A stretch of 36,896 nucleotides of DNA from contig JASHPN010000086.1 of assembly GCA_030038175.1 (NCBI GenBank), positions 1 to 36,896 of the forward strand. Direction: 5' to 3'. The position numbers were made by a program, and so were the translations under genes. The notes under the pieces are model-generated. The model did not search any database. It had not been told where the DNA came from and saw only the letters and a list, made by a program, of their open reading frames with translations. Position 1 is the stretch's first letter, and each line of letters begins with the position of its first letter. This document shows positions 7,292-36,896 of this stretch, one piece after another. Source of the stretch: Verrucomicrobiia bacterium. Lineage in GTDB: Bacteria > Verrucomicrobiota > Verrucomicrobiia > Limisphaerales > UBA11358.

Positions 7292-8191
7292 CTATTTGCG
7301 ACGGCGCCACAGCCACAGTGCGGCTGCGCCCAGGCCGGTCAGCACAGCGGCAGACGGCTCCGGCACCGGACCGATGGCGATGCCTTTGGGATCGCTCAAC
7401 CCGGAAATCAACGAGGCTTTAACGGTTGTTCCGGAAGTCGTGTATTCGCCGATGGTGTCTCCGTCAAAATTCGCCTCAAACAGGTCGTTCCCTGAAATGG
7501 CAATGCCGTAAGGAGAATCCAAATTGGAAATCAATGGGCTCGTGACCGTTGTCCCTGTGGTCGTGTATTCGCCGATGATGCCGGTCGTGGAGCCGTCGTC
7601 GCCAAAATTTCCGATAAACAGGTTGTTTCCCAGAACGGCAACCGCCTGGGGCCCTTCCAATCCGGCAGTCAGCGTGGCACTGAGCAATTGCCCGGAAGTG
7701 GTGTATTCACCGACGGTATTGTTGCCAAGATTCCCAACAAACAGGAGATTGCCTGAAATCGCGAGACCCTCAGGCGCATACAACCCGGAAACCAATGACG
7801 CGCTCACCGTCGTCCCCGAAGTTGTATATTCACCGATCGTGCCGTTTCCCGCGTTGGCGACAAACAAATCGTTCCCGGAGACCACGATGCCAGAAGGGCC
7901 GTCCAAACCCGTGATCAGCGCGGAATTTACGGTCGCCCCGGAAAGCGTGTATTCGCCAATGGTGTTGTTTCCCGGGTTCGAGACAAACAGGTCGTTTCCC
8001 GAAATCGCGATGCCGAAAGGAGCGGATAAACCCTTGATCAGCGATGCATTGATGGTTGAGCCATTCAACGCGTATTCGCCAATGGTGTTATTTCCGGAAT
8101 TTGCCACATATATGTCTTGCGCCTCGACGACAGCGGCCAAACCGCACGTTAGCGCCAGGGCTATTGCGCACACTTTCTTCGTAGTTTTCAT
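7292..8191 (-). CDS. PEP-CTERM protein with a six-repeat beta-propeller
   Basis: This is a 299-residue secreted protein. A signal peptide covers residues 1-24 (ends VEA). Six repeats of about 41 residues follow, each of the form LFVxNxGNxTIGEYTxSG, then a GLxxPxGIAISGN turn; the fifth has a 5-residue insertion. This is the pattern of an NHL/YVTN-like beta-propeller. The last 24 residues (276-299) are a PEP-CTERM sorting signal: VPEPSA, a hydrophobic stretch, then RRRK. In PEP-CTERM systems an exosortase removes this tail and the protein is delivered to the surface or extracellular matrix; no exosortase gene lies in the window. Ligand or partner is unknown. The gene diverges from the XylR-like regulator with 236 bp between them. 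Confidence 0.9.
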   Translation of the reverse strand: MKTTKKVCAIALALTCGLAAVVEAQDIYVANSGNNTIGEYALNGSTINASLIKGLSAPFGIAISGNDLFVSNPGNNTIGEYTLSGATVNSALITGLDGPSGIVVSGNDLFVANAGNGTIGEYTTSGTTVSASLVSGLYAPEGLAISGNLLFVGNLGNNTVGEYTTSGQLLSATLTAGLEGPQAVAVLGNNLFIGNFGDDGSTTGIIGEYTTTGTTVTSPLISNLDSPYGIAISGNDLFEANFDGDTIGEYTTSGTTVKASLISGLSDPKGIAIGPVPEPSAAVLTGLGAAALWLWRRRK

Positions 8192-12900: not shown

Positions 12901-13060
12901 CTATGCATCAAACCAGATTCAAACCACGGATAATCTGCAAAATCCGGATTGGACAAATCTGGCGATGACCTTTTCCGACGGCCTCGGCGCCTTCAGTTTT
13001 GCCGATACAAATGTGCCCGGCCATGCTCAACGGTTTTATCGCGGAGTGGCATTGCAATGA
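9932..13060 (+). CDS. Secreted GH59 galactocerebrosidase-like protein with discoidin-like and lamin-tail-like modules
   Basis: This is a 1042-residue secreted protein. A signal sequence ends near residue 36 (ESSWSQ), possibly from an internal Met20. Residues 37-655 follow animal galactocerebrosidase closely: FEGIGAVSAGASSRLL, LKVEIGG, TDGTEPS, GYEWWLMQQA, GAHYPG, NYINAKITATEIW, PWSGNY and AHTTQFAAPGW, ending in a lectin-like region (QFDNFTLRQL). Human GALC removes beta-galactose from galactosylceramide. The nucleophile Glu274 (LLWSSEDG) and proton donor Glu189 (GTHNEA) are present, but the Trp of the usual WNE is His187. An F5/8 type C (discoidin)-like domain follows at about 660-790 and a lamin-tail-like domain at about 800-960. 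The last 60 residues end in RFYRGVALQ. The chosen ATG is preceded by AGAGGGG. Substrate is unproven; a plant or microbial beta-galactoside is as likely as a glycolipid. Confidence 0.88.
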   Translation: MQLVGPIFKNAGLWFRPARMAVLVFALGLVTESSWSQVTIILDPHLTGRTFEGIGAVSAGASSRLLIDYPEPEQSQILDFLFKPDYGASLQHLKVEIGGGVNSTDGTEPSFEMVPGSMNFTRGYEWWLMQQAQARNPNIILDCLAWGAPGWIGGGNYYSSDMCNYIVSFIEGAQSNYGLTFNFTGTHNEAAVNSTETAWIKQLRSTLNVNGLQNVQLVAADEGGGTWNIVTNTNCGLLFDTTLSNDVARVGAHYPGQTSPAAAQTCGKLLWSSEDGIGGSTWAAATNLARIFNRNYINAKITATEIWSPITSYYDILAAPDSGLMRANTPWSGNYDVAPAIWATAHTTQFAAPGWTYLGGSASELLPNGGSIVTLVSTNQSDYSIVIETSDATAAQTIAFRLTNGLSTASVNVWETTQTNQFINVGQVTPANGTFSYTFQPAAIYSLTTTTGQTKGAATPPPAAPFPSPYKDNFESYAPGATPKYFSDQAGTFEVATRADGQGQSLRQVSPQTGIRWTSEWQPYTLIGDASWADYDVSADVLVETNGGLVFVMGRVESVPGFTDPMPRGYWLALNNGTSQWQLYASTNLLASGAANFATNTWHNLRLAMQGASLRCYVDSILVANLTDYSYASGMSGLGCGGWYGAQFDNFTLRQLHSGDVDLALGATASASSVWENEAEYGPAMANDGNPDTRWNTAYPTLSNEWLELDWPVPMTFNRTAYLQYLGGGNRIFGYQIQHWNGGGWTVDVNGGSMGGYATDIFPNVTASKVRLVLTNMTSAPSIYEFYVCNDTPPPASLPSIWINEWMSDNTHTLADPANGQFEPWFELYNAGAASVNLAGYYLTSSPTNLFQFQIPSGYSLPAGGFLLVWADGLTAQNSGSDLHVNFSLVPSPEIGLLNSVSPAAPPAAGSYVEQSPMIALVNSAGEIVDAVDLLPQSADVSSGSNPDGDPGILNLLVPTPRRSDDQIWALAAGCYSTNGAMVLNFSGFPYASNQIQTTDNLQNPDWTNLAMTFSDGLGAFSFADTNVPGHAQRFYRGVALQ

Positions 13061-13133: not shown

Positions 13134-16100
13134 ATGACGGTGTCTATGAAAAAGAGGGAAGCATCGTCCATTGATTTTCTCTCAAAAATCCACCTTTTTG
13201 CCGGTTTTGCGTTATGTCTGGCAAGCCGGCCGTTAATGGCGCAATCGGTAATTTGGAGCGGCGCGGGTGCCGTTGACGGTATCAATACCAATTGGTCGGA
13301 TGCGGCGAATTGGGCGGGGGGTACGCCCGGGCCGGCGACGAATATCTACTTTTTTGATCCCGGCGCGAACAGCGGACAGGGCGTCGTTGACAATATTGTG
13401 AGCAGTAATACTGCCATTTTGTCGCTGAACTATGGCAACACGAACGGGTTTCATACGACGCAAATCAACGCGGGAACGACGCTCAGTGTTTCCAACAACG
13501 CGGGGGACTCTCTTGTTTTTATTGGCACGGGAACGGATAATGGCTCCAACCAACAGTTATATGCCACGATGACGGGTGCGGGGACTTTTGCCGTCGTTGG
13601 AACAAACAGCGGTTCAGTTTTTTCAATCCAGCAATCCTCTGCCACGAACGGGACCCACATGGCCACGTTGGACCTTTCAGGTTTGGCTCAATTTAACCTT
13701 GTTGCAGGGCGGCTGCTGATAGGAGGCAATGGAGGATCGTCGGGCAATGTGAACCGGCCGGCCGGTACGATCTATCTGGCGGGCACGAATACGATTCGGG
13801 TCAACGGCGCGGCGCCGGCGATTGATGTGGGAGACGGGCCTATTGATGGGGCCACTGAGTACGTGTATTTGGGACAGACCAACGCGGTTTTCGCCGATTC
13901 AATCACGATTGCAGGGGAAAAATGCACTGCGAGCCTGGCATTCAATACTTCGCCGGGAGACAACCCGGTCCTTAATTTGAGCGGCAATAGCAATCCCCGC
14001 GTGAACACGCTGGCCGTTGGCGATTTTTCCGCGCAGTCCATAAGTGGTTCAACCGTTTTCGGCACGGTGAATTTAGTGGGCGGGACTGTCAACGCGCAGA
14101 TCAACACCTGCGACGTGGCCGATGGGCAGTCTGGAGATGGCAGCGGCACGACGACAGGCGCCCTGGACCTCGGGAGCGGCGTGTTTGACGTAAATACGCT
14201 GAATGTGGGTTATATCAATTCCAGCAGTGCCATCGGGAATGTGACCGGCACCGTGATGGTGACAAACGGGACCCTTGTGGTGAACGACAATTTGTTGCTG
14301 GCCTATACCCCCGGCGCCACGGCTCTGGTGTCAGGCACGCTGGACATCAGCAACGGCACGGTGCTGGCGAACAGCATCGCAGCCGGCGGCGGCACAAGCG
14401 CCGTGAACTTAAACGGCGGGTTGCTCGTGGTGAGCAATACAATGGGCGCACTGGGCGCGCCTTTGAGTTCCTTGACAGTTTTCGCCGGCGGGACGCTGCA
14501 ATTCGCCATCGCCAACAGTTTGACAAATGCGGTTGTCACCCGTGTCACCGGCGACAACAGCGGCGTGATCAACATCAGCACATTGCCCCTGGTCCTGGCC
14601 TATCCGTCGCAATATCCGCTGATTTATAGTCCGGGCGGCGGCGCCAGCAGGGTCGAGTTTTCCGCGGGCACATTGCCCAATTTGTATCAGGGTTACATTT
14701 CCAATGACAACTCGAGCACGGTATGGCTTGTGATTACCAATGGCCCGCCGGCGCCAAAGCTGGATGAATGGGGCGGGGGAGTGAATGATCATTGGGACAC
14801 GAATACGTTGAACTGGACGAACAGCGGCGTGACCGTGGCTTATCGCGAAGACGACATGACGCTTTTTGATGATGCGGCCGAAACCGGAACGGTGAACCTT
14901 ACGGGAACTACGCAACATACGCCTCTCGCCTGGATGGTTGCCAATAACGCGTTGGACTACGTGTTTGCGGGCAGCAATAGCATTGGCGGCATTGCCGGGC
15001 TGGTTAAATCCGGCGCGGGTTCGTTGACGCTTTTGGAAAGCAACGACGATTTCAGCGGCGGTATCGCGGTGAACGGCGGAACAGTGGTCCTTGATGAACC
15101 GGGCAGCTCGATTTCAGGTGGATTGAGCATCGCCAGTGGCGCAACGGCTCAAATTGGCGACGATGATGCAAATGGCAGCCTGCCTGCGGGTGCGATTACG
15201 AACAACGGAAATTTGGTTTTCAATCAAAACACCTCAGATTTCGTTTCAACGCCGATTACCGGGAGCGGGACTTTAACACAGAAAGGGACGGGCCTGCTCG
15301 AACTGGCCGGCAGCAACTCGTATGCGGGCGATACCGTGATTTTGGCTGGCGCGTTAGCGTTGACCAATAGCGGTTCCATTACGGCCAGCTCAAATATTGA
15401 TATCAACCATGGAACATTGGACGTTTCGGGCGCGACCGGAGGGACGTTGAACTATTTGAATATGACAAATGGCGCCGTTATGGTGGGAGCCACAACGATC
15501 GGCGTCGCGTCTCTGAACCTGGGCGGTTTGAGCAACACCATCAACGTCGCGGCTTTGCCGAATTTTTATTTCTATCCGACGAATGTCATACTGATTCAAT
15601 CAGCCGGTGGCATCAGCGGATACAACTTTGTCCTGGGAAACCTTCCGGCGGGCGCGCCTTTGTATGCCGGCAGGATTGTGCAAAACGAAAACGCGGTGGT
15701 TCTCACGCTTACCAACGGGCCGCTTGAGTTGGTTTCCGCAACGGTGAGTTTTTCCGCGACTGATGCCGGCCTGGCTCTGAACCCGGCATTTTGTGGTTTG
15801 AGTTATGAAAAGAGCGAATTGACGGGCAGCCTGTTTGTTTCAAACGATACTTCGCTGGTGAGCATGTTCAGCCAGATCGCGCCGGCGGTCCTGCGAGTCG
15901 GCGGCAATAGCGTTGACCGGACATGCTGGGGCGGTATTTCAAACGACACACCGATAACGGCCGCCGAGGTGGACGCGTTCGCCGGTTTCGTGAATGCGTT
16001 GCCGGCCAATTGGCGCGTCATTTACGGGATCAATATGTCGGTCAATTCCCCCACCAACTGCGCCGCGGAAGCGGCTTATGTGGCCAATGCGCTGGGGCCG

Positions 16101-17285
16101 CGCCTGCTCGGTTTCGAGATTGGCAACGAACCAAACCTATACAGTGGGAACGGCATTCGTTCGAGTGGTTACACGTATTCTGACTTCCGGTCGCAATGGC
16201 AGGCTCTGGCGGCAGCCATCACCAATACTGTCCCCGGCTGGGCCATCACCAACGGCGGGAATGGCTGGACGCTCACCGGGCCGGCTTCCTCGGGGGACGG
16301 GACAAGCTACACCGAGCTGTTCGCGGGAGACGAAGCAGACGTCATTTCACTGTTGACGCAACATTACTACCGGGCCGGCGGGGGATCGTCGTCGGCCACC
16401 ATGGCCAATCTTTTGCAACCCGATACCGGCTTGCCGGGCACTCTCAGCAAAGTCGTGGGGGCGGCGGCCGCGGCGGATTTGCCATTGGGTTTCCGGATGG
16501 CTGAATGCGGCTCCTTTTCCGACGGCGGCACGCCCAATGTGAGCGATGCCTATGGCTCGGCATTGTGGGCGCTGGATTTTATGTTCACTTGCGCGCTGAA
16601 CGGATGCCAGGGCATCAACTTCCAGGGAGGCGGGGAGGCGGAGATTTATACGCCGATTGTGGATAACGGCACGAATGTCGTCCAGGCCCGGCCGGAATTT
16701 TACGCGTTAAAAATATTTTCGTTAATGTCGCAGGGCAGCATTATTTCTGCCGACGTTGCGCTGGCATCCAATATTAATTTTACCGCGTATGGCGTTCGGC
16801 GCGGCAGCGGCGGCATCAGCGCCCTGTTGAACAACAAAGACACGAATTATGGCGTTCAGGTGAGCATCAATTTAGGGCCGAACGTGGCGGCGGCCCAGGC
16901 GATTGAGTTGACCGGGACCAATCTCAATAGCACCAATGGTTATACTCTCGGCGGTGCGGAGATTTATCCGGATGGATCATGGACCGGCGGCGTTCAGTCC
17001 GTGACTTTCGGGACAAATGGCCAGTTTACGTTCATGGTGCCGCCGATTAGCGCGGTCCTGTTGAACCCGGTTATCTACGGAACGAATATCGCAGTGAGCG
17101 TGGCCGGAAACCAATTGAATTTGAGCTGGCCGACGAATTACCTCGGCTGGCTGCTGCAATCCAATTCCGCGGGCCTGGCGAGCGGCGACTGGTTCACGGT
17201 ACCGGGGTCGGCGGGGACAAATTGCTTTCAAATTACGATTGATCCAGTACAAGGAAACGTGTTCTACCGGCTGGCGGCTCCGTAG
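13134..17285 (+). CDS. Secreted beta-helix protein with PATR repeats and a GH79-like glycosidase domain
   Basis: The 1383-residue protein starts with a signal peptide (ends PLMAQ); the ATG at 13146, which gives MKKREASS, may be the better start. Residues 38-865 are Gly/Asn/Thr-rich repeats of a right-handed beta-helix, including PATR elements (GLVKSGAGSLTLLESNDDFS and LTQKGTGLLELAGSNSYAGD). Residues about 868-1315 resemble GH79 beta-glucuronidase/heparanase: FCGLSYEKSEL, LRVGGNSVDRTCW, VIYGINM, FEIGNEPNLY with acid/base Glu999, and RMAECGSF with nucleophile Glu1124. A beta-sandwich (FYALKIF to AVLLNP) follows. There is no autotransporter barrel. The last 60 residues end in FYRLAAP, like those of the GH59-like and LRR proteins. 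GH79 enzymes release glucuronic acid from glycans such as arabinogalactan proteins or glycosaminoglycans; the actual substrate is unknown. Its gene follows the GH59-like gene by 73 bp. Confidence 0.85.
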   Translation: MTVSMKKREASSIDFLSKIHLFAGFALCLASRPLMAQSVIWSGAGAVDGINTNWSDAANWAGGTPGPATNIYFFDPGANSGQGVVDNIVSSNTAILSLNYGNTNGFHTTQINAGTTLSVSNNAGDSLVFIGTGTDNGSNQQLYATMTGAGTFAVVGTNSGSVFSIQQSSATNGTHMATLDLSGLAQFNLVAGRLLIGGNGGSSGNVNRPAGTIYLAGTNTIRVNGAAPAIDVGDGPIDGATEYVYLGQTNAVFADSITIAGEKCTASLAFNTSPGDNPVLNLSGNSNPRVNTLAVGDFSAQSISGSTVFGTVNLVGGTVNAQINTCDVADGQSGDGSGTTTGALDLGSGVFDVNTLNVGYINSSSAIGNVTGTVMVTNGTLVVNDNLLLAYTPGATALVSGTLDISNGTVLANSIAAGGGTSAVNLNGGLLVVSNTMGALGAPLSSLTVFAGGTLQFAIANSLTNAVVTRVTGDNSGVINISTLPLVLAYPSQYPLIYSPGGGASRVEFSAGTLPNLYQGYISNDNSSTVWLVITNGPPAPKLDEWGGGVNDHWDTNTLNWTNSGVTVAYREDDMTLFDDAAETGTVNLTGTTQHTPLAWMVANNALDYVFAGSNSIGGIAGLVKSGAGSLTLLESNDDFSGGIAVNGGTVVLDEPGSSISGGLSIASGATAQIGDDDANGSLPAGAITNNGNLVFNQNTSDFVSTPITGSGTLTQKGTGLLELAGSNSYAGDTVILAGALALTNSGSITASSNIDINHGTLDVSGATGGTLNYLNMTNGAVMVGATTIGVASLNLGGLSNTINVAALPNFYFYPTNVILIQSAGGISGYNFVLGNLPAGAPLYAGRIVQNENAVVLTLTNGPLELVSATVSFSATDAGLALNPAFCGLSYEKSELTGSLFVSNDTSLVSMFSQIAPAVLRVGGNSVDRTCWGGISNDTPITAAEVDAFAGFVNALPANWRVIYGINMSVNSPTNCAAEAAYVANALGPRLLGFEIGNEPNLYSGNGIRSSGYTYSDFRSQWQALAAAITNTVPGWAITNGGNGWTLTGPASSGDGTSYTELFAGDEADVISLLTQHYYRAGGGSSSATMANLLQPDTGLPGTLSKVVGAAAAADLPLGFRMAECGSFSDGGTPNVSDAYGSALWALDFMFTCALNGCQGINFQGGGEAEIYTPIVDNGTNVVQARPEFYALKIFSLMSQGSIISADVALASNINFTAYGVRRGSGGISALLNNKDTNYGVQVSINLGPNVAAAQAIELTGTNLNSTNGYTLGGAEIYPDGSWTGGVQSVTFGTNGQFTFMVPPISAVLLNPVIYGTNIAVSVAGNQLNLSWPTNYLGWLLQSNSAGLASGDWFTVPGSAGTNCFQITIDPVQGNVFYRLAAP

Positions 17286-26282: not shown

Positions 26283-29200
26283 TTAGGGACCAATCAACCG
26301 ATAAAACCGCCGTGAATTCGTGGCCGAAGAATCAATGAACGTCGCCGTTCCGGTTACATTGGTCACGGCCCCAAGAGTCGTCCAGGGGCCGGCGGTAAGA
26401 TTTGTCGCGAACTGCACTTGATAGACCAAATCCGTCGCGCCATTCAGCGAAAATTCAATCTGATGCGCGCTCAGCCGCAACGGCGAGAGCAACGTCGCCA
26501 GGCTCTGCGGCAGATACACCACCGTCGCCCCGCCCGCTTCAAGAGCTTCGATCTCCGCCAGGGCCGGCGAACCCGGAGACAGATTCAGCAAATTATAATT
26601 CAATTGCACGTCGTTCAAATTCGTCAGGCCCGTGATGGGCGCCAGGCTCGTGACCTGATTATTGTTGAAAAACAAGGTGGACAGTTTCGTCAAATGGGCC
26701 AGCGGCGCGAGGCTGGTGACCTCGTCGTTGCCGACGTCAAGAGACGTCAGGTTCGTCAAGCCGGCCAGTGGCGAGAGGTCGCTGATTTGAAGGTCTTTCG
26801 CATTCAACTGGGTCAATTGGATCAGGCCTGCCACCGGCGAAAGATTGGTAATCAGGTTGTCGTTGATCCAAAGGATATTCAGATTTGTCAGTCCCGCCAC
26901 CGGCGACAAGTCGGCGACATCGTTATTGTTGGCATACAGGATGGTCAAGTCGGTCAGTCTGGCCAGCGGAGAGAGATTGGTCGCATCATTGAAGCTGAGG
27001 TCCAGGAAGGTCAAATTGCTCACCGCGCCAAGGGCCGTCAGATTGGAAATGTGGTTATTGTCGAGATAGACTTCCGTAAGATTGGTCAAATTGGCGAAGG
27101 ACGGCAGATTTGTAATGTCATCAAAGCCGGCGTCGAAGGTGATCAACCCGGTGAGATTTGTGAGTGGCGAAAGGTTGAAAAGATTTGAATTTTCATCAAA
27201 CTGGAGGTGCGCCAGGTTCGCCATGTCATCCAGCGGCGAGAGATCGGTGATCTGGTTTTCGTCAAGGTAAAGGGTCGTCAGGTTGGTCAGAGTGGACAGC
27301 GGACTGATGTTGGTAATCGCGTTCCCTGAAAGGACCAGATACGTGAGGTTCGTCGCGTAGGCCAGTCCAGTGACGTTCTGAATGCCGTCGTAACCCGCCG
27401 TGAGATTGGTCAGCGTCAACATTTCCTGCACGGTAACCGGCCCGGACGAAAGACCCAGGGCGGACTCGACCGCGGCCTGCAAGTTGGCGTCCGGAAACGT
27501 CACTGGAGTGCCGGAAATAATGCTGAGATAGGCGTTGTCGCTGAAGATCGTTCCGTTATCGTCGGAAACCTCCACATAATAGGCGCCCGCCTGGCTCGGA
27601 TCGGTAACGGTGACGCTCAGCGTGTTGCTGGCGGACCCCGTGATGCCGCCGCCGTCACTCAGCGGAACGTAGTTATAAAACCATTGATAATAAATATCCG
27701 GCGGCGAACTCGAAGTGGCGCTGACGGTGAAGACCGCCGTCTGGCCCACGATCACCATTTGATTCGTTGGCGGCGAATTAATCGTGGGAGTCGTATTCTG
27801 CGGCTGATAGGTGACATTCGCGCCGAGGTTGAGATATGTATTGATGACGTTCATCGCGTCCAAGCCGGCGGTCAGGTTCACGCTATTGTAGCTCACATCC
27901 AGCGTTGTCAGGTTGTTGGTCAGGGGCAGCAACGGATCGAGGTTGCTCACGAAATTGTTTTCCATGGTCAGGGTGGTGAGGCTGGTGAGATTGGTGAGCG
28001 GATCCAGCCGATAGACTCCGTTGTTATCCAAAATCAGCGTCTGCAACTGAACCAGGCCCGCCAATGGCGTGAGATTCTCAATTTGATTGTCATTCAACGG
28101 CAGCCACGTCAGGTTCGTCAATCCGGCCAGGGGCGAGAGGTCGCTGATTTGGTTGTAGGACGCGTTCAACAGGCTCAATGGGGTCATGCCGGCCAGCGGC
28201 GAAAGGTTGGTGATTTGATCGTTGTTGAAGTAAAGATTCACCATATTGGTCAACCCGGTCAGCGGCGAAAGGTCGGTTGCGCTGGTGTAACTGATGTCCA
28301 AATAATTCAAGGCGCTCATTTCCGCCAATGGCGAGAGGTTATCAATCTGATTGTTTCCGAGAAAAAGTGTGCCCAGATTCGTCAACCCGGCCAGCTCCGA
28401 GACGTTGGTGATGCCGATGTTGGCCGCATTCAACAGGGTCAATTGCGTTAACCCGGCCAGCGGCGAAATATTGGGGATCGGATCATCATTGAGGTACAGG
28501 CTCCCCAGATTGGTCAATCCGGCCAGCGGCGAAATATTGGTGACGAGATTGTCGTTCACGGGCAGCCACACCAGGCTCACCAGATGAGTCAGCGGGGACA
28601 GGTCGGAGATTTGATTGTGGCTTGCGTTCAATTGGCTTAATTGAACCATGCCGGACACGCCCGCCAGGTTGGTGATTTCATTGTTGTTAATGTACAGGTT
28701 GGTCAGATTGGTCACTCCGGCCAGCCCCAAAAGATTGCTCAAACTATTGAAACTGAGGTCCAGATAATTCAGCGCGCTCAAATTCGCCAGTGCCGGGAGC
28801 CCGGTAAGTTGATTCTGGCTCACGACCAAATAGCTCAGGTTGGTCAATCCCGTCAACGGCGAGACGTTGGTAAGCTGGTTATTGTAGAGGAGAAGCTGGA
28901 TGAGTCCGGTCAACGTCGCCACCGGGGTGATATCAGTCAGTTGATTGTGTCCGGATTCGAGATAAGTCAAGTTGGTCAACCCGGTCAATCCGGCGAGGCT
29001 GATAATCTGGTTATTATCAATGGACGCCGAGGTTAGATTCGTCAAACCGCGCAACGGCGGCACATTGGTTACCTGGTCATAGCCGCCGTCGAAATCGGCC
29101 AGCGCCGTCAGGTTCGTCATCGGCGACCAATCCACAATCGGATTCTCGCCCATTCGCAAATGAGCCAATTGAACCATCCGCTCGATCGGCGATAGATTCG

Positions 29201-29558
29201 TGATTTGGTTGTTATCTATCTGGAGCGTGTTCAGGTTCGTTAACCCGGCCAGCGGCGTGATGTCGGTGAGCGAATTGCCCGAGAGAACCAAATAAGTGAG
29301 GTTCGTCGCATATTGCAGTCCCGTGGCATCCTGGATGTTATCGCCGCTGGCGGTCAGGTTCGTCAGCGTCAGCATCTCGGCGGCAGTGACCGGGCCCGAA
29401 GACAGCCCCAGAGCCGACTCCACGGCCGCCTGCAGGTTGGGATCAGGAAAAGTGACTGTCTGGGCGGAAGCCAGTCCGGCGATGCCGAGAAATTGGGCGA
29501 AGATAAGACTGGCCGCAAAGCGCAGGTGTTTTCGCGCGAAATAGTGCAAAATTTTCAT
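26283..29558 (-). CDS. Secreted internalin-like leucine-rich-repeat protein with Ig-like domain
   Basis: This is a 1091-residue protein. A signal peptide ends near residue 32 (GLASAQ). A cap motif (VTFPDPNLQAAVESALG) is followed by about 23 LRRs of 21-22 residues in the internalin SDS22-like form (NQITNLSPLAGLTNL; about 80-575). An Ig-like domain lies at about 590-680 (PTINSPPTNQMVIVG to GAYYVEVSD), then a second cap (VTFPDANLQAAVESALG, about 684) with a second, shorter LRR block to about 1010. Cap plus first repeats are therefore duplicated. Within the first block a seven-repeat unit (154 residues) is duplicated at exactly 462 bp. The last 65 residues end in RRFYRLIGP, like the two glycosidases. 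LRRs usually bind proteins or glycans; the ligand is unknown. Confidence 0.9.
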   Translation of the reverse strand: MKILHYFARKHLRFAASLIFAQFLGIAGLASAQTVTFPDPNLQAAVESALGLSSGPVTAAEMLTLTNLTASGDNIQDATGLQYATNLTYLVLSGNSLTDITPLAGLTNLNTLQIDNNQITNLSPIERMVQLAHLRMGENPIVDWSPMTNLTALADFDGGYDQVTNVPPLRGLTNLTSASIDNNQIISLAGLTGLTNLTYLESGHNQLTDITPVATLTGLIQLLLYNNQLTNVSPLTGLTNLSYLVVSQNQLTGLPALANLSALNYLDLSFNSLSNLLGLAGVTNLTNLYINNNEITNLAGVSGMVQLSQLNASHNQISDLSPLTHLVSLVWLPVNDNLVTNISPLAGLTNLGSLYLNDDPIPNISPLAGLTQLTLLNAANIGITNVSELAGLTNLGTLFLGNNQIDNLSPLAEMSALNYLDISYTSATDLSPLTGLTNMVNLYFNNDQITNLSPLAGMTPLSLLNASYNQISDLSPLAGLTNLTWLPLNDNQIENLTPLAGLVQLQTLILDNNGVYRLDPLTNLTSLTTLTMENNFVSNLDPLLPLTNNLTTLDVSYNSVNLTAGLDAMNVINTYLNLGANVTYQPQNTTPTINSPPTNQMVIVGQTAVFTVSATSSSPPDIYYQWFYNYVPLSDGGGITGSASNTLSVTVTDPSQAGAYYVEVSDDNGTIFSDNAYLSIISGTPVTFPDANLQAAVESALGLSSGPVTVQEMLTLTNLTAGYDGIQNVTGLAYATNLTYLVLSGNAITNISPLSTLTNLTTLYLDENQITDLSPLDDMANLAHLQFDENSNLFNLSPLTNLTGLITFDAGFDDITNLPSFANLTNLTEVYLDNNHISNLTALGAVSNLTFLDLSFNDATNLSPLARLTDLTILYANNNDVADLSPVAGLTNLNILWINDNLITNLSPVAGLIQLTQLNAKDLQISDLSPLAGLTNLTSLDVGNDEVTSLAPLAHLTKLSTLFFNNNQVTSLAPITGLTNLNDVQLNYNLLNLSPGSPALAEIEALEAGGATVVYLPQSLATLLSPLRLSAHQIEFSLNGATDLVYQVQFATNLTAGPWTTLGAVTNVTGTATFIDSSATNSRRFYRLIGP

Positions 29559-29798: not shown

Positions 29799-31622
29799 TT
29801 ACTTGGAAGCCCCGCTCCGCCATAGCGTCAGCGCGCAAGCGGGCACACTCGCAATCAGAAGCGATGCCCAATTCTGAAAACTCAGACCCAGGCCGATCAT
29901 GGCCAATAATCCCCCCACATTGCTTAAGCGCCAAATGAAGCGATACGGAACCGCACCTTGATCTCCGTGCCCTTTGATCGAGCCCGTGGCATTTGCCTTT
30001 GCCAAAACTGCGATTTGAATGCGCGCATACCATTGCAGCGCCAGTCCCAGTACTACCAGGACGATGGCCATTGTGATGATGCCGGGCCACGATGTGCCGG
30101 TCGCAGGCAGCCAAAACGCGGCAAAAACTCCCAGCCCGACAGCGACCAGATAACTGCGAGTGGTGGTTACTCCCCGGGGATCATGTCCTGCGGCGCTGGC
30201 ATCGAACCGCTTCGCCACGTTCCTGCCAATGCCGGAGACAATCCAGAGAAACAACAGGATCGCCGCAGGATTGCGGCTTAGGATCAGCGGAATGGCGGCG
30301 ATGGTCGAGTATTGCGGAACCGGCGGAAGTTTCCCCGGGTCCAACGCCTCTTGAGGCTCCGGCAACGGGGAATGGGTCGCCCAATAATGTTTCACCGAAA
30401 GCACGGCCGCTTCCACGGCGAGGTTATTCCAATACTCATGGCTGGTGAGAACCGTGCTCGCCGCCATCTCGTAAAGCTCATGATCGAGCATGGACATTTC
30501 GATCCACTCGAAATTCAGGAACTGTCTTTCATGATGCCAGTGGCTCATGCCGTTGACTTCACCGGCGATTCCGTTTGTGCCCAGATACATCACGAAACGC
30601 GCCGTGTTGATCAGCCGTTGCATTTGCAGGGGAGTCGGGCCCAGGTTCGCCTGCCAGGCGCGGAAGATAAACATGTCGTAATCCGATTCGATCGTGGACT
30701 CCGGCTCGGCGGCGGTGGGACGCGTCACCACGTAAGCCCAGTCGTAGCAAACCCGATCGTGTGCGCTCACCGGCATCGCGGTCGCAAAGAACCAGTTCGC
30801 CGCGTTCGCCGTGATTTTTTCATAATACGCGATGTTGGTGCTGTCGTCGTTGAGCAGGCGATGGCATTGCGCCAGCCGAAGTAATCCACCGACAATTTCC
30901 TGTTGCTGGTTCCACGGTATGGGGCCTCTCTCGTGCCAATCGCTGGCTTTGAAAAAGGCCGCTGAATTCGGATAGTAAAGCCGATAGCCCTCCTTTGTGT
31001 TTCGGACAAACCATGGAACAATGGTGGTATCGGCGCTGCGCTGACATTCGCGCACATACGTTTTGGCGCGGTCAAGATAAGTCGTGCCGAAATCGAAACG
31101 GTCTCGCGGAGCGGCCAGATTCCAGACTGCCGGGTTTTCCAGGATCAATCGGGCCGTGTTAACGATGTGTTCGATGACATCACCATTTTCCGAGCTGCTA
31201 TGCAAAGCGAGGACGCCTTCATTGGTGGCCTTATTTGGCCAGCAAAGATCGCGGGTGCCGGTCCAGATGGCGCGTCCGTTGGTTGGATCATTGCGCGCAT
31301 GCAGAAAGGCGTCCGACCAGATAATCGCCATATTCAAATCGCGCCGGTCATGCGTGAACTCATAAAACGTCTGCATCCCATGGAGTCGCGCGCCGTCGCG
31401 TTCATCCACCATGAGATTGCCGATGTCGTTCGTCGGTGGCGGCGGCAGGTAATGGAGTTTGTTGATGAAAGCTTTGATTTCATTGGTAGTGACGTCGCCA
31501 TCAATCCCGTCCAGTACCATGTCCCGGTCCTCGGCCAGGGCAGCCATTCCCAACAGGAAGAACAGCTTAAAGACACTTAGTGCCCTTAGAGTCGAGGTGA
31601 AAATGGATGCGCTCGTTTTCAT
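29799..31622 (-). CDS. Secreted helical protein fused to a degenerate ICMT-like membrane domain
   Basis: I do not recognise the N-terminal half. With the start at 31622 the protein has 607 residues and begins MKTSASIFTS with a signal sequence at about 13-30 (ends AALA). An upstream ATG at 31757 is open but its extension crosses a hairpin repeat and lacks a secretory start, so I reject it. Residues 45-420 are mostly helical with aromatic motifs (RLHGMQTFYEFTHDRRDLN, WNQQQEIVGGLLRLAQCH, SHWHHERQF), suggesting an (alpha/alpha) toroid of the glycosidase/lyase type; no catalytic set is evident. Membrane segments lie at about 440-465, 488-505, 512-534 and 568-600. The last part (LALQWYAR to YRFIWRLSNVGGLLAMIGLG) resembles isoprenylcysteine methyltransferase-like membrane domains, but the usual RHPSYTG reads WRLSNVG, so activity is doubtful. 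Confidence 0.75.
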   Translation of the reverse strand: MKTSASIFTSTLRALSVFKLFFLLGMAALAEDRDMVLDGIDGDVTTNEIKAFINKLHYLPPPPTNDIGNLMVDERDGARLHGMQTFYEFTHDRRDLNMAIIWSDAFLHARNDPTNGRAIWTGTRDLCWPNKATNEGVLALHSSSENGDVIEHIVNTARLILENPAVWNLAAPRDRFDFGTTYLDRAKTYVRECQRSADTTIVPWFVRNTKEGYRLYYPNSAAFFKASDWHERGPIPWNQQQEIVGGLLRLAQCHRLLNDDSTNIAYYEKITANAANWFFATAMPVSAHDRVCYDWAYVVTRPTAAEPESTIESDYDMFIFRAWQANLGPTPLQMQRLINTARFVMYLGTNGIAGEVNGMSHWHHERQFLNFEWIEMSMLDHELYEMAASTVLTSHEYWNNLAVEAAVLSVKHYWATHSPLPEPQEALDPGKLPPVPQYSTIAAIPLILSRNPAAILLFLWIVSGIGRNVAKRFDASAAGHDPRGVTTTRSYLVAVGLGVFAAFWLPATGTSWPGIITMAIVLVVLGLALQWYARIQIAVLAKANATGSIKGHGDQGAVPYRFIWRLSNVGGLLAMIGLGLSFQNWASLLIASVPACALTLWRSGASK

Positions 31623-31682
31623 GTCACCGACGTCGTTGAACCATGAACCGTTCGATTTGCGCTTGCGTTCCCAATTGCGCAG

Positions 31683-31711
31683 GAGCCGATCCCGCGATGC
31701 GGGAGAGGCTC
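31683..31711. repeat. Hairpin repeat upstream of the minus-strand gene
   Basis: GAGCC (31683-31687) with GGCTC (31707-31711), and inside TCCCGC (31690-31695), loop GAT, GCGGGA (31699-31704), form a stem with one symmetric internal loop. The core resembles the right hairpin of the 18600-18712 element. Confidence 0.45.
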
Positions 31712-31807
31712 TGACCAAGCTGGTACAAGCAAGATTTGTAGCGCGTATATATCTCAACCCGGCCCTTCACTCAAGACCAACCTATTAAAACCAATTAGTT
31801 AAACTTG

Positions 31808-31836
31808 TTGACAAAATTCAAAGATCAATTTAAAAT
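31808..31836 (+). promoter_or_regulatory. Near-consensus sigma70 promoter for the fibre genes
   Basis: TTGACA (31808-31813), a 17-bp spacer and TAAAAT (31831-31836) lie 48 bp before the first fibre gene start. AAGGAAG (31872-31878) is a good ribosome binding site before the ATG at 31885. The -35 context ACTTGTTGACAAA matches the promoter near 17383 exactly. Confidence 0.75.
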
Positions 31837-31884
31837 GCGGCGCATCCGTCGGTAGAAACAGGTCATTACGAAAGGAAGAACACT

Positions 31885-34623
31885 ATGAAATCCGTACTGC
31901 GTCTGAATCTCATCTGCGCGCTGGCAATCCTGGCGCTTTTATCAACCATCAACGATCAACTGTCAACCGCCTGCGCCCAGGGCACCGCCTTCACCTACCA
32001 GGGGCAGTTGCAAAACAACGGCGTTCCGGCCTACGGAACCTACAACCTCCAATTCACCCTCTATACCAATAGCGCCGGAGGTGTCGCCGTCGCCGGGCCA
32101 GTGACCAACAACGCTGTGGCCGTCACCAATGGCCTGTTCACCGTGACAATGGATTTCGGCTCGGCGCCCTGGAACGGGCAGAGCAACTGGCTGCAAATCG
32201 CCGTGGAAACCAACGGCGCAGCCACGTTCATCGCGCTGGCGCCTCTCCAGCCGGTGACGCCCGTGCCGTATGCGATTTATGCTGAAAATGCGACAATGCT
32301 GGCCGGTGGCACGGCCCTGGGTATGGGTTCGGGGGACAGCATCGCCAGTGCCGCGAGCGATGCCTTCATCGGCGGCGGGTATCACAATATGATTGAAATT
32401 AACGGGAGTGACGCCTCCATCGGCGGCGGCTATGAGAACCAGGCTGATGCCCAGAGTTCGACCGTTGGCGGGGGCGCGTTCAACATCGCCAGTGGCAATA
32501 CTGCGACCGTGAGCGGCGGCGATGCCAATATCGCCAGCGGTGTTTATTCGGCGGTGGTTGGCGGCTATCACAACCAGGCCGGCGCCAGTGGCTCTTTCAT
32601 TGGCGGCGGCGGTTACGATGGAACCACCTCTGATGGCAATAATAATCAGGCCAATGCCGCCGCCATTGTCGGCGGGTTGGGCAACGTCATTGGAAGCAGT
32701 GCCGTTTACGCTTTCATTGGCGGCGGTGCGTACAACAACGCCGGTGGCGGATATGCGGCAATCGGCGGTGGCGGGGGAAACGTCGCCGGCGGTCAATGGG
32801 CAATCATCGGCGGCGGCGCAAACAACTTTGCGAGCGGCCAGGATGCTGTTATCGGCGGCGGTGACGGAAACACCGCCAGCAACGAATTGGCGACAGTGGT
32901 CGGCGGCTATGAAAACTTGGCCGGCGGTACTGGCTCCTTCATTGGTGGCGGGGGTTACGATGGAAGCACCAGTGACGCAAACACGAATCAAGGCAACGCC
33001 GCCGCCATTGTCGGCGGGTTGGGCAATAACATCTTAAGCGGAGCGCCTTACGCTTTTATCGGCGGCGGATGGGGCAACACCGTCGGCGCAGTCAGTTCGA
33101 CGGTCGGCGGCGGCTTTGAGAACACCGTCGGCGGCGAAGACGCAGTCGTCGGCGGCGGCCAGAATAACTCCGCCGGCGGCAATTCCGGGACGGTGGCCGG
33201 CGGCACTTACGACACCGCCGGCGCTGCCTTTGCCACGGTGGGCGGCGGTCTTGACAACAACGCCGGCGGCATTGGCTCCTTCATTGGCGGCGGGGGCGAT
33301 GATGGAAACAAATTTAACGGAAACACCAATCAAGGCAACGCCGCCTCCATTGTCGGCGGAGAGGGCAATACCATCGCCAGCGGCGCGACGTATGCCGTTA
33401 TCGGCGGCGGCTATCACAGCACTGTCAACGGTTCTGGCTCCTTTGTTGGCGGCGGTGGTTATGATGGAAGCAATCTTGATGGAAACAGTATTCAAACCTC
33501 TGCCTCCGCCATCGTCGGCGGGTTGGGCAACGTCATCCAGGGCGCGGGGGAGTATGCCTTCATCGGTGGTGGCCAGGGCAATGTCGCCAGCGGCAATAGC
33601 GCGACGATGAGTGGCGGCGCGGACAACTCCGCCAGCGGCAGCGGCTCTTTCGTCGGCGGCGGCGGTTATGACGGGAGCAGCTACGCCGGAAACAATAATC
33701 AAGGCGCCGCCTCGGCCATCGTCGGCGGATGGGGCAACGTCATCAACGCGGCGGCCACTTACGCCTTCATCGGCGGTGGCCAGCAAAACACCAACAGCAA
33801 TCTCGGGGCGACCCTGGGCGGTGGTATATTTAATGTGGCCAGTGGACAGGCGGCGACCATCGGCGGCGGCGCGTTCAATGCCGCCGGCGGCACGGCTGCG
33901 ACGGTGACCGGTGGCCAGGACAACACCGCCAGCGGCACTTACTCGACCGCATGCGGCGGTTCGACCAACCTCGCCAGCGGCGCCGATTCGTTTGCCGCCG
34001 GAGACGAGGCCCGGGCGACCAATAACGGCGCCTTCGTTTGGGCCGATTCCACCGGCGCCGCTTTCGGCTCCGCCAGCAACAATACCTTCAGCGCCCGCGC
34101 CAGCGGCGGCTACCGTCTTTACAGCAGCACCACCACAGGCGAGTGGCTGCCTGCCGGCAGCGGCACCTGGAATTCGCTCAGCGACCGCAACGCCAAAAAC
34201 AATTTCGCGCCGGTGGACCCGCAAACGGTGCTGGCCTCGGTGGCGTCGTTGCCGCTGAGCACCTGGAGTTACAAGACTGAGCCGGGTGTGCGGCATTTGG
34301 GGCCGATGGCGCAGGATTTCCACGCGGCCTTTAAGGTGGGTGAAGACAACCGGCATATCGCCGATTTGGACGAAGGCGGCGTCGCCCTGGCCGCGATCCA
34401 GGGCCTGAATCAAAAAGTGGAGGATGGAAACCAGAGACAAGAGCACTGCATCCAGAAGTCAGAAGCCAGAATCCGGAATTTGGAAACGGAGAACTCGAAG
34501 CTCCAGGCGCAGGTAGCCGGCTTGCAAGCCCAGCTGGCCGGCCTGCAAAAGGCCGTCGCCGCTCTGGCCGGCAAATCCGTCCGCAATCTGGCCCTGAACA
34601 CTCAAGCCCAGGAAGACAAATGA
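31885..34623 (+). CDS. Surface fibre protein 1: YadA-head-like GGG repeats with C-terminal S74 chaperone
   Basis: The 912-residue protein has a signal peptide ending at about residue 31 (LSTACAQ). A beta-rich N-terminal domain follows (TAFTYQGQLQNNG to PVPYAIYAENA, about 32-135), then about 560 residues of 14-16-residue repeats of the form AxIGGGxxNxAxGxxA with recurring longer units (SFIGGGGYDG to NAAAIVGGLGN). These resemble YadA head beta-roll repeats. The S74 intramolecular chaperone begins near SDRNAKNNF; Ser766 and Lys771 match the S74 catalytic Ser-x4-Lys dyad. GPMAQDFHAAF follows. The tail (about 840-910) is coiled coil. S74 domains trimerise and self-cleave in phage tail fibres. A trimeric surface fibre is inferred. 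A second paralogue starts 24 bp downstream. Confidence 0.85.
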   Translation: MKSVLRLNLICALAILALLSTINDQLSTACAQGTAFTYQGQLQNNGVPAYGTYNLQFTLYTNSAGGVAVAGPVTNNAVAVTNGLFTVTMDFGSAPWNGQSNWLQIAVETNGAATFIALAPLQPVTPVPYAIYAENATMLAGGTALGMGSGDSIASAASDAFIGGGYHNMIEINGSDASIGGGYENQADAQSSTVGGGAFNIASGNTATVSGGDANIASGVYSAVVGGYHNQAGASGSFIGGGGYDGTTSDGNNNQANAAAIVGGLGNVIGSSAVYAFIGGGAYNNAGGGYAAIGGGGGNVAGGQWAIIGGGANNFASGQDAVIGGGDGNTASNELATVVGGYENLAGGTGSFIGGGGYDGSTSDANTNQGNAAAIVGGLGNNILSGAPYAFIGGGWGNTVGAVSSTVGGGFENTVGGEDAVVGGGQNNSAGGNSGTVAGGTYDTAGAAFATVGGGLDNNAGGIGSFIGGGGDDGNKFNGNTNQGNAASIVGGEGNTIASGATYAVIGGGYHSTVNGSGSFVGGGGYDGSNLDGNSIQTSASAIVGGLGNVIQGAGEYAFIGGGQGNVASGNSATMSGGADNSASGSGSFVGGGGYDGSSYAGNNNQGAASAIVGGWGNVINAAATYAFIGGGQQNTNSNLGATLGGGIFNVASGQAATIGGGAFNAAGGTAATVTGGQDNTASGTYSTACGGSTNLASGADSFAAGDEARATNNGAFVWADSTGAAFGSASNNTFSARASGGYRLYSSTTTGEWLPAGSGTWNSLSDRNAKNNFAPVDPQTVLASVASLPLSTWSYKTEPGVRHLGPMAQDFHAAFKVGEDNRHIADLDEGGVALAAIQGLNQKVEDGNQRQEHCIQKSEARIRNLETENSKLQAQVAGLQAQLAGLQKAVAALAGKSVRNLALNTQAQEDK
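32131..32497. repeat. 367-bp near-identical block shared by the two fibre genes (copy 1)
   Basis: This block matches 34894-35260 at a constant offset of 2763 bp with only three mismatches. Sequence before and after it in the two genes is visibly more diverged, so the block stands out as a recent gene-conversion or duplication tract. Confidence 0.7.
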
Positions 34624-34647
34624 AATTCTGAAGAAAGGAAGAAAACT

Positions 34648-36896
34648 ATGAAAACCATGTTGCGTTTGAATCTTATATTCGCGCTGGCCGTGTTGGCGCT
34701 TTTATCAACTGCCAACGATCAACTATCAACCGCCCACGCCCAGGGCACCGCCTTCACCTACCAGGGCCAGCTCCAAAACAACGGCGTTCCGGCCAACGGG
34801 ACCTACAACCTCCAATTCACCCTCTATACCAACAGCGCCGGAGGTGTCGCCATCGCCGGCCCTGTCACCAATAACGCCGTGGCCGTGTCCAACGGCCTGT
34901 TCACCGTGACAATGGATTTCGGCTCGGCACCCTGGAACGGGCAGAGCAATTGGCTGCAAATCGCCGTGGAAACCAACGGCGCAGCCACGTTCATCGCGCT
35001 GGCGCCTCTCCAGCCGGTGACGCCCGTGCCGTATGCGATTTATGCTGAAAATGCGACAATGCTGGCCGGTGGCACGGCCCTGGGTATGAGTTCGGGGGAC
35101 AGCATCGCCAGTGCCGCGAGCGATGCCTTCATCGGCGGCGGGTATCACAATATGATTGAAATTAACGGGAGTGACGCCTCCATCGGCGGCGGCTATGAGA
35201 ACCAGGCTGATGCCCAGAGTTCGACCGTTGGCGGGGGCGCGTTCAACATCGCCAGTGGCAGTACTGCCACGATAAGCGGTGGCTATGCCAATATCGCCAG
35301 CGGTGTTTATTCGGCGGTGGCTGGCGGCTATCACAATCAGGCCGGCGCCTATGGCTCATTCGTTGGCGGCGGCGGCTACGACGGAAACAACTTTGATGGC
35401 AATAATAATCAGGCCAACGCCGCCGCCATTGTCGGGGGGCTCGGCAACAGTATCTCGAACACTGCGAATTATGCCTTCATCGGCGGCGGCCAGACCAACA
35501 CCGCCAGCGGAACCAATGCAACCATAGGCGGCGGCTGTGACAACAACGTCAGCGGCAGTGGCTCCTTTATCGGCGGCGGTGGTTTCGATGGAACGACCAT
35601 TGATGGAAATACCAATCAAGGCAATGCCGCTACTATTGCCGGCGGACTGGGTAATTTCATTCAAAGCGGCGCGAATGACACGTCCATTGGCGGCGGTTAT
35701 CATAATATGATCGAACTCAACGGAAGCGATGCCACGGTCGGCGGTGGCTATGAAAACCAGGCGGATGCCCAGAGCTCGACCGTTGGCGGCGGCGCGTTCA
35801 ACATCGCCAGTGGCAATACTGCAACGATAAGCGGTGGCTATGCCAATGTCGCTGGCGGCGTTTATTCGGCGGCGGTTGGCGGCTATCACAATCAGGCCGG
35901 CGCCTATGGCTCCTTCATTGGCGGCGGCGGCTATGACGGAAACAACTTTGATGGCAATAATAATCAAGCCAACGCCGCAGCCATTGTCGGCGGACTGGGC
36001 AACTCTATTTCAAACACCGCAATTTATGCCTTCATCGGCGGCGGCCAAACCAATATCGCCACCGGTACCAATGCAACGATCGCCGGCGGTTGGGATAACA
36101 TCGTCGTCGGTAGCGGTTCCTTCATCGGCGGGGGTGGCTATGATGGAACGACGGTTGAGGGAAATACCAATCAAGCCAATGCCGCCGCCATCGTCGGCGG
36201 ACTGGGTAATCTCATCCAAAGCGGCGCAAATGACACCTTCATCGGCGGCGGGTATCGTAATATGGTTAATCCCAACGGGAGCGATGCCGTCATCGGCGGC
36301 GGCCAGTTCAACCTCGCTGGCGGCGAGTACGCGACGGTGAGTGGCGGCTATCAAAATCAGGCTGTCGCCCAGGATTCGACCGTCGTCGGCGGCGCATTCA
36401 ACGTTGCCAGTGGCGGCTTTTCTTTTGCCGCCGGAGACGAGGCCCAGGCGACCAACAATGGCGCCTTCGTATGGGCGGATTCCATCGGCGACGATTTTGG
36501 GTCGGCCAGTAACAATACCTTCAGCGTCCGCGCCAGCGGCGGCATCCGGCTTTATAGCAGCACCAGTTCCGGTGAGTGGTTGCCCGCCGGCAGCGGCATG
36601 TGGACAAGCTTGAGCGATCGCAACGCCAAAAATAATTTCGCGCCGGTGGACCCGCAAACGGTGCTGGCTTCGGTGGCGTCCTTGCCCGTGAGCACCTGGA
36701 GTTACCAGACTGAGCCGGGCGTGCGGCATTTGGGACCGATGGCGCAGGATTTCCACGCGGCCTTTAATGTGGGCGAAGACAACCGGCATATCGGCGACTT
36801 GGACGAGGGCGGCGTCGCCCTGGCTGCCATCCAGGGGCTGAATCAAAAAGTGGAAACCGGAAAGCAAAAAACCGAAAACCAGATTGAAGAACTCAA
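34648..36896 (+). CDS. Surface fibre protein 2, paralogue, truncated by window end
   Basis: This frame starts with ATG at 34648 after the same AAGGAAG ribosome binding site, 24 bp past the first fibre gene. It is open for 749 codons to the window edge. It has the same plan as fibre 1: signal peptide (LSTAHAQ), N-terminal domain beginning TAFTYQGQLQ, GGG repeats, S74 domain with SDRNAKNNF (Ser656, Lys661), GPMAQDFHAAF, and the start of a coiled coil at the edge. In its head region two 555-bp units (185 residues each) repeat in register. The tandem arrangement, same spacing and no promoter between them suggest one operon with fibre 1. I followed the frame codon by codon from about 35041 to the end and found no stop. 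Confidence 0.85.
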   Translation, partial: MKTMLRLNLIFALAVLALLSTANDQLSTAHAQGTAFTYQGQLQNNGVPANGTYNLQFTLYTNSAGGVAIAGPVTNNAVAVSNGLFTVTMDFGSAPWNGQSNWLQIAVETNGAATFIALAPLQPVTPVPYAIYAENATMLAGGTALGMSSGDSIASAASDAFIGGGYHNMIEINGSDASIGGGYENQADAQSSTVGGGAFNIASGSTATISGGYANIASGVYSAVAGGYHNQAGAYGSFVGGGGYDGNNFDGNNNQANAAAIVGGLGNSISNTANYAFIGGGQTNTASGTNATIGGGCDNNVSGSGSFIGGGGFDGTTIDGNTNQGNAATIAGGLGNFIQSGANDTSIGGGYHNMIELNGSDATVGGGYENQADAQSSTVGGGAFNIASGNTATISGGYANVAGGVYSAAVGGYHNQAGAYGSFIGGGGYDGNNFDGNNNQANAAAIVGGLGNSISNTAIYAFIGGGQTNIATGTNATIAGGWDNIVVGSGSFIGGGGYDGTTVEGNTNQANAAAIVGGLGNLIQSGANDTFIGGGYRNMVNPNGSDAVIGGGQFNLAGGEYATVSGGYQNQAVAQDSTVVGGAFNVASGGFSFAAGDEAQATNNGAFVWADSIGDDFGSASNNTFSVRASGGIRLYSSTSSGEWLPAGSGMWTSLSDRNAKNNFAPVDPQTVLASVASLPVSTWSYQTEPGVRHLGPMAQDFHAAFNVGEDNRHIGDLDEGGVALAAIQGLNQKVETGKQKTENQIEEL
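34894..35260. repeat. 367-bp near-identical block, copy 2
   Basis: This is the counterpart of 32131-32497 with three mismatches. It spans part of the N-terminal domain and the first GGG repeats of fibre 2. Confidence 0.7.
35143..36252. repeat. Two in-register 555-bp repeats inside fibre gene 2
   Basis: Unit 1 (35143-35697) and unit 2 (35698-36252) align without insertions or deletions and begin with TATCACAATATG and TATCATAATATG. Landmarks such as TATGCCTTCATCGGC recur exactly 555 bp apart (35470 and 36025). A third unit begins at 36253 and is cut short by the C-terminal S74 region. Confidence 0.75.

Follow-up and report, generated by a model that had tools for sequence, protein, structure and literature searches.

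Mosaic adhesive trimer (MAT) fibres are known from Bdellovibrio bacteriovorus (Caulton et al. 2024, PMC10769870). As described there, these proteins have a signal peptide and a constant N-terminal domain (N-domain), are displayed at the surface and carry exchangeable tips, such as the C-type lectin tip of Bd2740. In the same study, Bd3182 cleaves at an SDxxxK motif, the change S782A blocks this cleavage, and the surface partner of the N-domain is named as unidentified. By title, all the open-licence literature on mosaic adhesive trimers concerned Bdellovibrio. In that literature, we found nothing in print on a family of the type described below outside Bdellovibrio and no paper on UspA1-type head domains in Verrucomicrobia, and no title among the matches listed dealt with S74 fibres in Verrucomicrobiota.

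Here we describe two fibre genes on a stretch of 36,896 bases (the window), which is one entire contig (C219) of a genome (G000) of 5.39 Mb in 431 contigs that is 91.8% complete. The features of the gene pair are as follows.

31808..31836, + strand: putative sigma-70-like promoter TTGACA-17-TAAAAT upstream of ORF1 and ORF2, 11/12 consensus positions
31885..34623, + strand: ORF1, fibre protein of 912 aa (open frame, Pfam S74, UspA1 head match)
31885..31977, + strand: ORF1 putative Sec-type signal peptide, likely cut after Ala31 (A-C-A), judged by eye
31981..32298, + strand: ORF1 N-domain, aa 33-138, MAT-like beta domain (NF053851 Bdello_MAT_N, E 2.3e-4; AlphaFold2 model)
32365..34032, + strand: ORF1 UspA1/YadA-type head repeats, about aa 161-716 (repeat table, 3pr7 match)
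34180..34332, + strand: ORF1 Peptidase_S74 core, aa 766-816, Ser766/Lys771 (Pfam E 9.7e-11; SDRNAK)
34372..34617, + strand: ORF1 C-terminal coiled coil, aa 830-911 (a single long helix at residues 205-286 of the model)
34648..36896, + strand: ORF2, paralogous fibre protein of at least 749 aa, open at its 3′ end (open frame; N-domain 97% identical to that of ORF1)
34744..35061, + strand: ORF2 N-domain, aa 33-138 (weak Bdello_MAT_N match; alignment A1)
35128..36447, + strand: ORF2 UspA1-type head repeats, about aa 161-600 (repeat table, 3pr7 match)
35130..36303, + strand: ORF2 internal tandem duplication, nt 483-1101 of ORF2 again at 1038-1656 (BLASTN 85.5% over 619 nt)
36613..36765, + strand: ORF2 Peptidase_S74 core, aa 656-706, Ser656/Lys661 (Pfam E 3.2e-10; SDRNAK)

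The two frames lie head to tail with a gap of 24 nt, and the 3′ end of ORF2 is missing because the window is a whole contig. A preliminary description of this DNA had reported a tandem pair of fibre genes. Both frames were present where it had placed them, and the pair is real, but it is not isolated: it makes up 2 of the 15 N-domain places in the genome. That description had mentioned neither these further copies nor the N-domain common to both proteins, nor the internal duplication of ORF2. Over their initial ~930 nt, the two genes share 88.9% identity, while the shafts vary in the order of their repeat blocks. The putative promoter was the sole such site in 31650-34720, where shuffled sequence had 1.3 promoter-like sites on average. 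Its exact form occurred once in the window against 0.01 expected, for a pattern that was picked after being seen. Elsewhere, the window encodes an NHL/Vgb-lyase-type propeller with a terminal PEP-CTERM signal (7292-8191, − strand), a GH59 galactocerebrosidase-type enzyme that also has F5/8C and lamin-tail domains (9932-13060), adjoined by a protein with PATR repeats and a GH79-C-like part (13134-17285), a protein of 1091 aa with an Ig domain and numerous internalin-like leucine-rich repeats (26283-29558, − strand), and, divergent from the fibre pair, a 652-aa frame without a Pfam match (29799-31757, − strand).

Read from the N-terminus, ORF1 and ORF2 begin with a hydrophobic leader and an N-domain of ~105 aa; the repeats come next, followed by a short beta stretch (FVWADS...RASGG...) and then by Peptidase_S74 and a long coiled coil. 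Judged by eye, both leaders consist of a hydrophobic core followed by A-x-A. The repeats are mainly 15-aa units, xVGGGxxNxASGxxA, interspersed with 22+17-aa units, FIGGGGYDG...NQANAA and AIVGGLGN...YA, which were also found in several paralogues in the same genome. Very long frames of UspA1-type repeats, of at least 1677 and 825 aa, run off the contig ends at two other loci (L035 on C174 and L045 on C355).

The repeats matched the UspA1 head structure 3pr7 with E 9.3e-18 (ORF1) and 9.5e-13 (ORF2), and reversed ORF1 150-730, used as a control, gave no match at E≤10. The YadA-like head repeats of the preliminary description were thus recovered in both proteins. An AlphaFold2 monomer model of ORF1 aa 626-912 (pLDDT 81.4, pTM 0.46) matched in fold the heads of UspA1, BoaA, BpaC, AtaA, EibD and YadA as well as phi29 gp12. 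For example, Z was 15.4 for UspA1 3ntn (159 residues, rmsd 6.8), 14.7 for phi29 gp12 3suc (113 residues, rmsd 2.2), 13.5 for BoaA and 11.6 for YadA. A rye-grass ice-binding protein matched the model too (Z 13.1), so the beta-roll alone is uninformative on function. We rejected an identity as an ice-binding protein, for which the match to the Pfam plant ice-binding beta-roll was only sub-threshold.

The Peptidase_S74 domains scored 42.2 bits in ORF1 and 40.6 bits in ORF2, against a Pfam gathering score of 22. The dyad motif, SDRNAK, begins at Ser766 and Ser656, respectively, so the Ser/Lys pair is intact in both, as had been claimed. SDxxxK was kept in all 12 Pfam-selected S74 domains of the genome, which are spread over 10 contigs. 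This count is the independent check on the dyad; the invariant S, D and K of alignment A4 are no evidence because its rows were chosen for having SDxxxK. The S74 part of ORF1 matched the intramolecular chaperone of MyRF (7dc3) with a Foldseek probability of 0.97-0.99 but E 0.11-0.25, and weakly matched the intramolecular chaperone 3gud.

The N-domain relates these proteins to the MAT fibres. Bdello_MAT_N is the only NCBIfam family that matched the N-domain widely: it was matched by 59 of 72 N-domains at E≤1 (best 2.1e-8), each with a score under the family's cut-off, and the next family by 6 members. When the genome was searched with Bdello_MAT_N, all eight matches at E≤1 fell inside N-domains of the ORF1/ORF2 family, and at the same threshold 1 of 14 control genomes matched. 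Among 288 genomes, a Bdello_MAT_N match at E≤0.001 was found in 29, and a match to our own N-domain profile at E≤1e-5 in 29 (this genome included). In these genomes, 13 of the 44 Bdello_MAT_N matches overlapped one of the 62 N-domain profile matches outside this genome, where ~0.001 would be expected. Remote homology of the N-domain to Bdello_MAT_N, and with it common descent, appears well supported from these sequence comparisons. The ORF1 N-domain scored 21 bits against a curated cut-off of 60 bits, which was reached by no sequence in any of the 288 genomes. We therefore call the family MAT-like and do not file it as a MAT member.

An AlphaFold2 monomer model of the ORF1 N-domain was all-beta, with moderate confidence (pLDDT 77.5, pTM 0.67). 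Foldseek gave no match for this fold at E≤0.001, and the best match by sequence in the PDB had E 0.3. The best VIA-align match, to a DUF3823 fold, had Z 7.8, which is within the usual noise; therefore we make no claim about the fold. Two N-domains (L039 and L040, on C81 and C73) carry a ~100-aa insertion rich in Gly, Ser and Thr, and that of C355 is a divergent form that also matches Bdello_MAT_N. Alignment A1 omits C81 and C73, on account of the insertion, as well as C355 and C303. Alignment A3 covers 70 of 78 loci, with L130, L136, L140, L142, L145, L148, L150 and L151 omitted for brevity alone.

With N-domains at 15 places and 12 copies of the S74 domain, this genome was the richest in both among 40 neighbourhood genomes, 33 of which had the N-domain and 19 S74. 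Ten of the 15 N-domain places are in S74 frames, three are cut at contig ends, and two have other complete tips, namely a Gly-rich domain (PF21722, on C351) and one without an assigned family (C414). Outside this genome, an N-domain lay in the same frame, as judged by contig and frame length, at 22 of 36 S74 places; of 101 frames with an N-domain, 22 contained S74.

For a wider view of tips, leaders and neighbours, relatives were collected with patterns from this genome's own sequences, and the best 80 of 497 were kept, so the sample is biased to near kin. By N-domain, these best 80 of 497 were metagenome bins of Verrucomicrobia subdivision 3, Limisphaerales and Pedosphaera: 73 of 78 relatives were Verrucomicrobiota-type and the remaining five were named only as "bacterium". 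Of the 78 leaders, a crude script assigned a hydrophobic core to 75 and an A-x-A-like end to 51, and it found no lipobox. At least two N-domain genes were present at 16 of the 78 loci. Tips were counted in the 71 complete relatives among these best 80 of 497; seven loci cut at the 3′ end were omitted, and some ends counted as "other" (e.g., L078, L140, L151) may be frameshifts. S74 was found in 20, Sortilin-Vps10 in eight (BNR models in three), and FGE-sulfatase, FG-GAP and DUF7452 in three each, with single matches to Kelch, GDSL and a phage-depolymerase C-domain. FGE-sulfatase domains have a C-type-lectin-like fold. Kelch, BNR and GDSL tips, which resemble propellers or enzymes, are not obviously trimeric, so the N-domain alone is no proof of a trimer.

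On the N-domain tree (115 columns), S74 and other tips required 20 changes; the mean over shuffles was 23.4, and 52 of 500 shuffles were as low. Only three tip changes were forced by well-supported branches. The fit of tip type to the N-domain tree is barely closer than expected by chance. The MAT-like fibres of Verrucomicrobiota-type bacteria, with their shaft of autotransporter type, are a real family that has been little described.

The preliminary description had proposed a search for associated outer-membrane genes beyond the window. The 15 largest clusters of neighbours at the 78 loci (from the best 80 of 497) included none that we recognised, judging by eye from sequence starts, as outer-membrane or secretion proteins. 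The largest cluster, at 26 of these loci, had the look of an NHL-type propeller, and single linkage may have inflated its size.

We consider it likely that ORF1 and ORF2 belong to a genome-wide family of S74-matured, trimeric MAT-like surface fibres that have an autotransporter-type shaft and serve in adhesion. Within this, the best-supported reading is of exported trimeric fibres, not part of a phage, that would mature through autocleavage by S74. Each chain would be exported by Sec and would trimerise by way of its UspA1-type beta-roll shaft, the C-terminal S74 and coiled coil serving as the trimerising chaperone. After trimer formation, S74 would cut itself directly before Ser766 (ORF1) or Ser656 (ORF2), which would free the chaperone and leave the mature fibre end exposed. 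The N-domain, near-constant while shafts and tips vary, may be a presentation module that docks on a partner at the cell surface. The most likely role would be adhesion, with many fibres and different tips for many glycans or surfaces. The analysis shows the gene structure, the domain homologies, the catalytic motif, the copy number, the range of tips borne by one N-domain and the lack of a YadA anchor; cleavage, trimer formation, surface location, outer-membrane crossing and adhesion are what we infer for these fibres.

A phage origin must be weighed, since S74 is best known from phage fibres and the S74 part of ORF1 matched 19 phage records by tblastn (all at <60% identity and <80% coverage). 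We regard prophage or eCIS tail fibres lodged in the chromosome as highly improbable, however. ORF1 and ORF2 have putative Sec-type leaders, and the 12 S74 copies are scattered over 10 contigs. Phage_sheath_1 had no match in the genome. The nine window proteins scanned against PHROGs had the look of housekeeping genes or enzymes and included no virion module, bar a weak 64-aa match in a glycosidase. The earlier statement that nothing phage-like lies nearby agrees with these scans, and as neither the window nor the genome-wide sheath search revealed a virion or eCIS gene cluster, we did not assign the proteins to that class. The N-domain had no match in 50,697 phage records and one in IMG/VR (L154 3435-6281), where it is fused to Kelch-like repeats. 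On that contig, an alaS-like frame adjoins the N-domain gene, and the stretch looks like host DNA beside a provirus.

The UspA1-type heads could instead point to true trimeric autotransporter adhesins (type Vc) with a YadA anchor that was lost or is encoded apart. This is very unlikely in view of the C-terminus, which is S74 followed by a coiled coil, and of the N-domain, which is of another family. Moreover, YadA_anchor had no match in ORF1, which unlike ORF2 is complete, or in the whole genome, and never one above the cut-off in 31 genus genomes, this one included; the preliminary description was right that no barrel is attached. With heads but no YadA_anchor barrel, we did not file the pair as trimeric autotransporters. 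The YadA likeness noted earlier stands for the heads, while the best comparator is the Bdellovibrio MAT fibres and not YadA. Somewhat less improbable, but still unlikely, are soluble periplasmic or secreted fibres that bind, for example, matrix or particles without cell attachment, the N-domain being a trimer cap and not an anchor. No anchor or exporter was identified in the genus genomes or the neighbour clusters, and the weak Pfam matches to the plant ice-binding beta roll also fit soluble fibres. Against them, the N-domain is conserved across different shafts and tips, and it is related to that of MATs, which are surface-displayed according to the Bdellovibrio paper.

Among 72,556 plasmid records, the N-domain was found in one, pHAU01 of Herpetosiphon aurantiacus (CP000876.1). 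Herpetosiphon is a facultative predator of bacteria. The protein, Haur_5099 (L155 4887-6959), is annotated only as a hypothetical protein. It resembles ORF1 and ORF2 in its leader, N-domain (34% identity), UspA1-type repeats (3.4e-17), S74 (5.4e-8) with SDKHRK and a heptad-like region. It ends in a C-terminal hydrophobic helix and an Arg-rich tail, which were not seen among those S74 proteins of Verrucomicrobiota type that were checked. A helix in this position, behind S74, is reminiscent of MyRF/MrfA, which are tethered to the membrane and released by autoproteolysis (PMC3828593). It is possible that Haur_5099 is a tethered, self-releasing fibre.

The N-domain is kin to that of the prey-binding Bdellovibrio fibres, and therefore exchangeable-tip surface fibres are probably not confined to predators. 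More tentatively, MAT-type display could be a widespread bacterial system and not an invention of predators: a constant N-terminal presentation domain in Verrucomicrobiota, Chloroflexota (Herpetosiphon) and Bdellovibrionota would present shafts and tips that are freely exchanged, among them trimeric-autotransporter heads with a self-removing S74 in place of the barrel. If so, an outer-membrane export and docking partner would have to stand in for the type V barrel, and cleavage in the Herpetosiphon protein would, as in MyRF, release the fibre from a chaperone tethered to the membrane. A second many-copy lineage gives a comparative handle on the surface partner of the N-domain, because any exporter or receptor should be common to MAT-bearing lineages. 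It also suggests that adhesin heads of the type found in human pathogens can function with no barrel, and that fibres with exchangeable tips serve bacteria in general and are not a mark of predation.

Compared with known systems, the ORF1/ORF2 family shares with the MAT fibres a constant beta-rich N-domain, a long repetitive shaft and many copies per genome, and its putative leader would correspond to their signal peptide. S74 with SDxxxK is present in part of each family (13 of 21 Bdellovibrio MATs and 10 of the 15 N-domain places here), with other tips elsewhere. The N-domain is ~105 aa long here and ~130 aa in the MATs, the homology being remote and below the curated cut-off. The present family also differs in its UspA1-type head shaft, in tips that include FGE-sulfatase, BNR, Kelch and Gly-rich domains, and in its Verrucomicrobiota-type host, with no known predatory life. 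UspA1/YadA trimeric autotransporters have the same beta-roll head repeats and end in a YadA anchor, whereas in ORF1 and ORF2 the S74 chaperone replaces the anchor. Phage endosialidase, phi29 gp12, T5 fibres and MyRF likewise carry S74 (ICA) with a Ser-Lys dyad at the C-terminal end of the fibre. In contrast to these phage and MyRF proteins, ORF1 and ORF2 have a putative Sec-type leader and a MAT-like N-domain and are encoded on a bacterial chromosome with no adjoining phage genes in the window.
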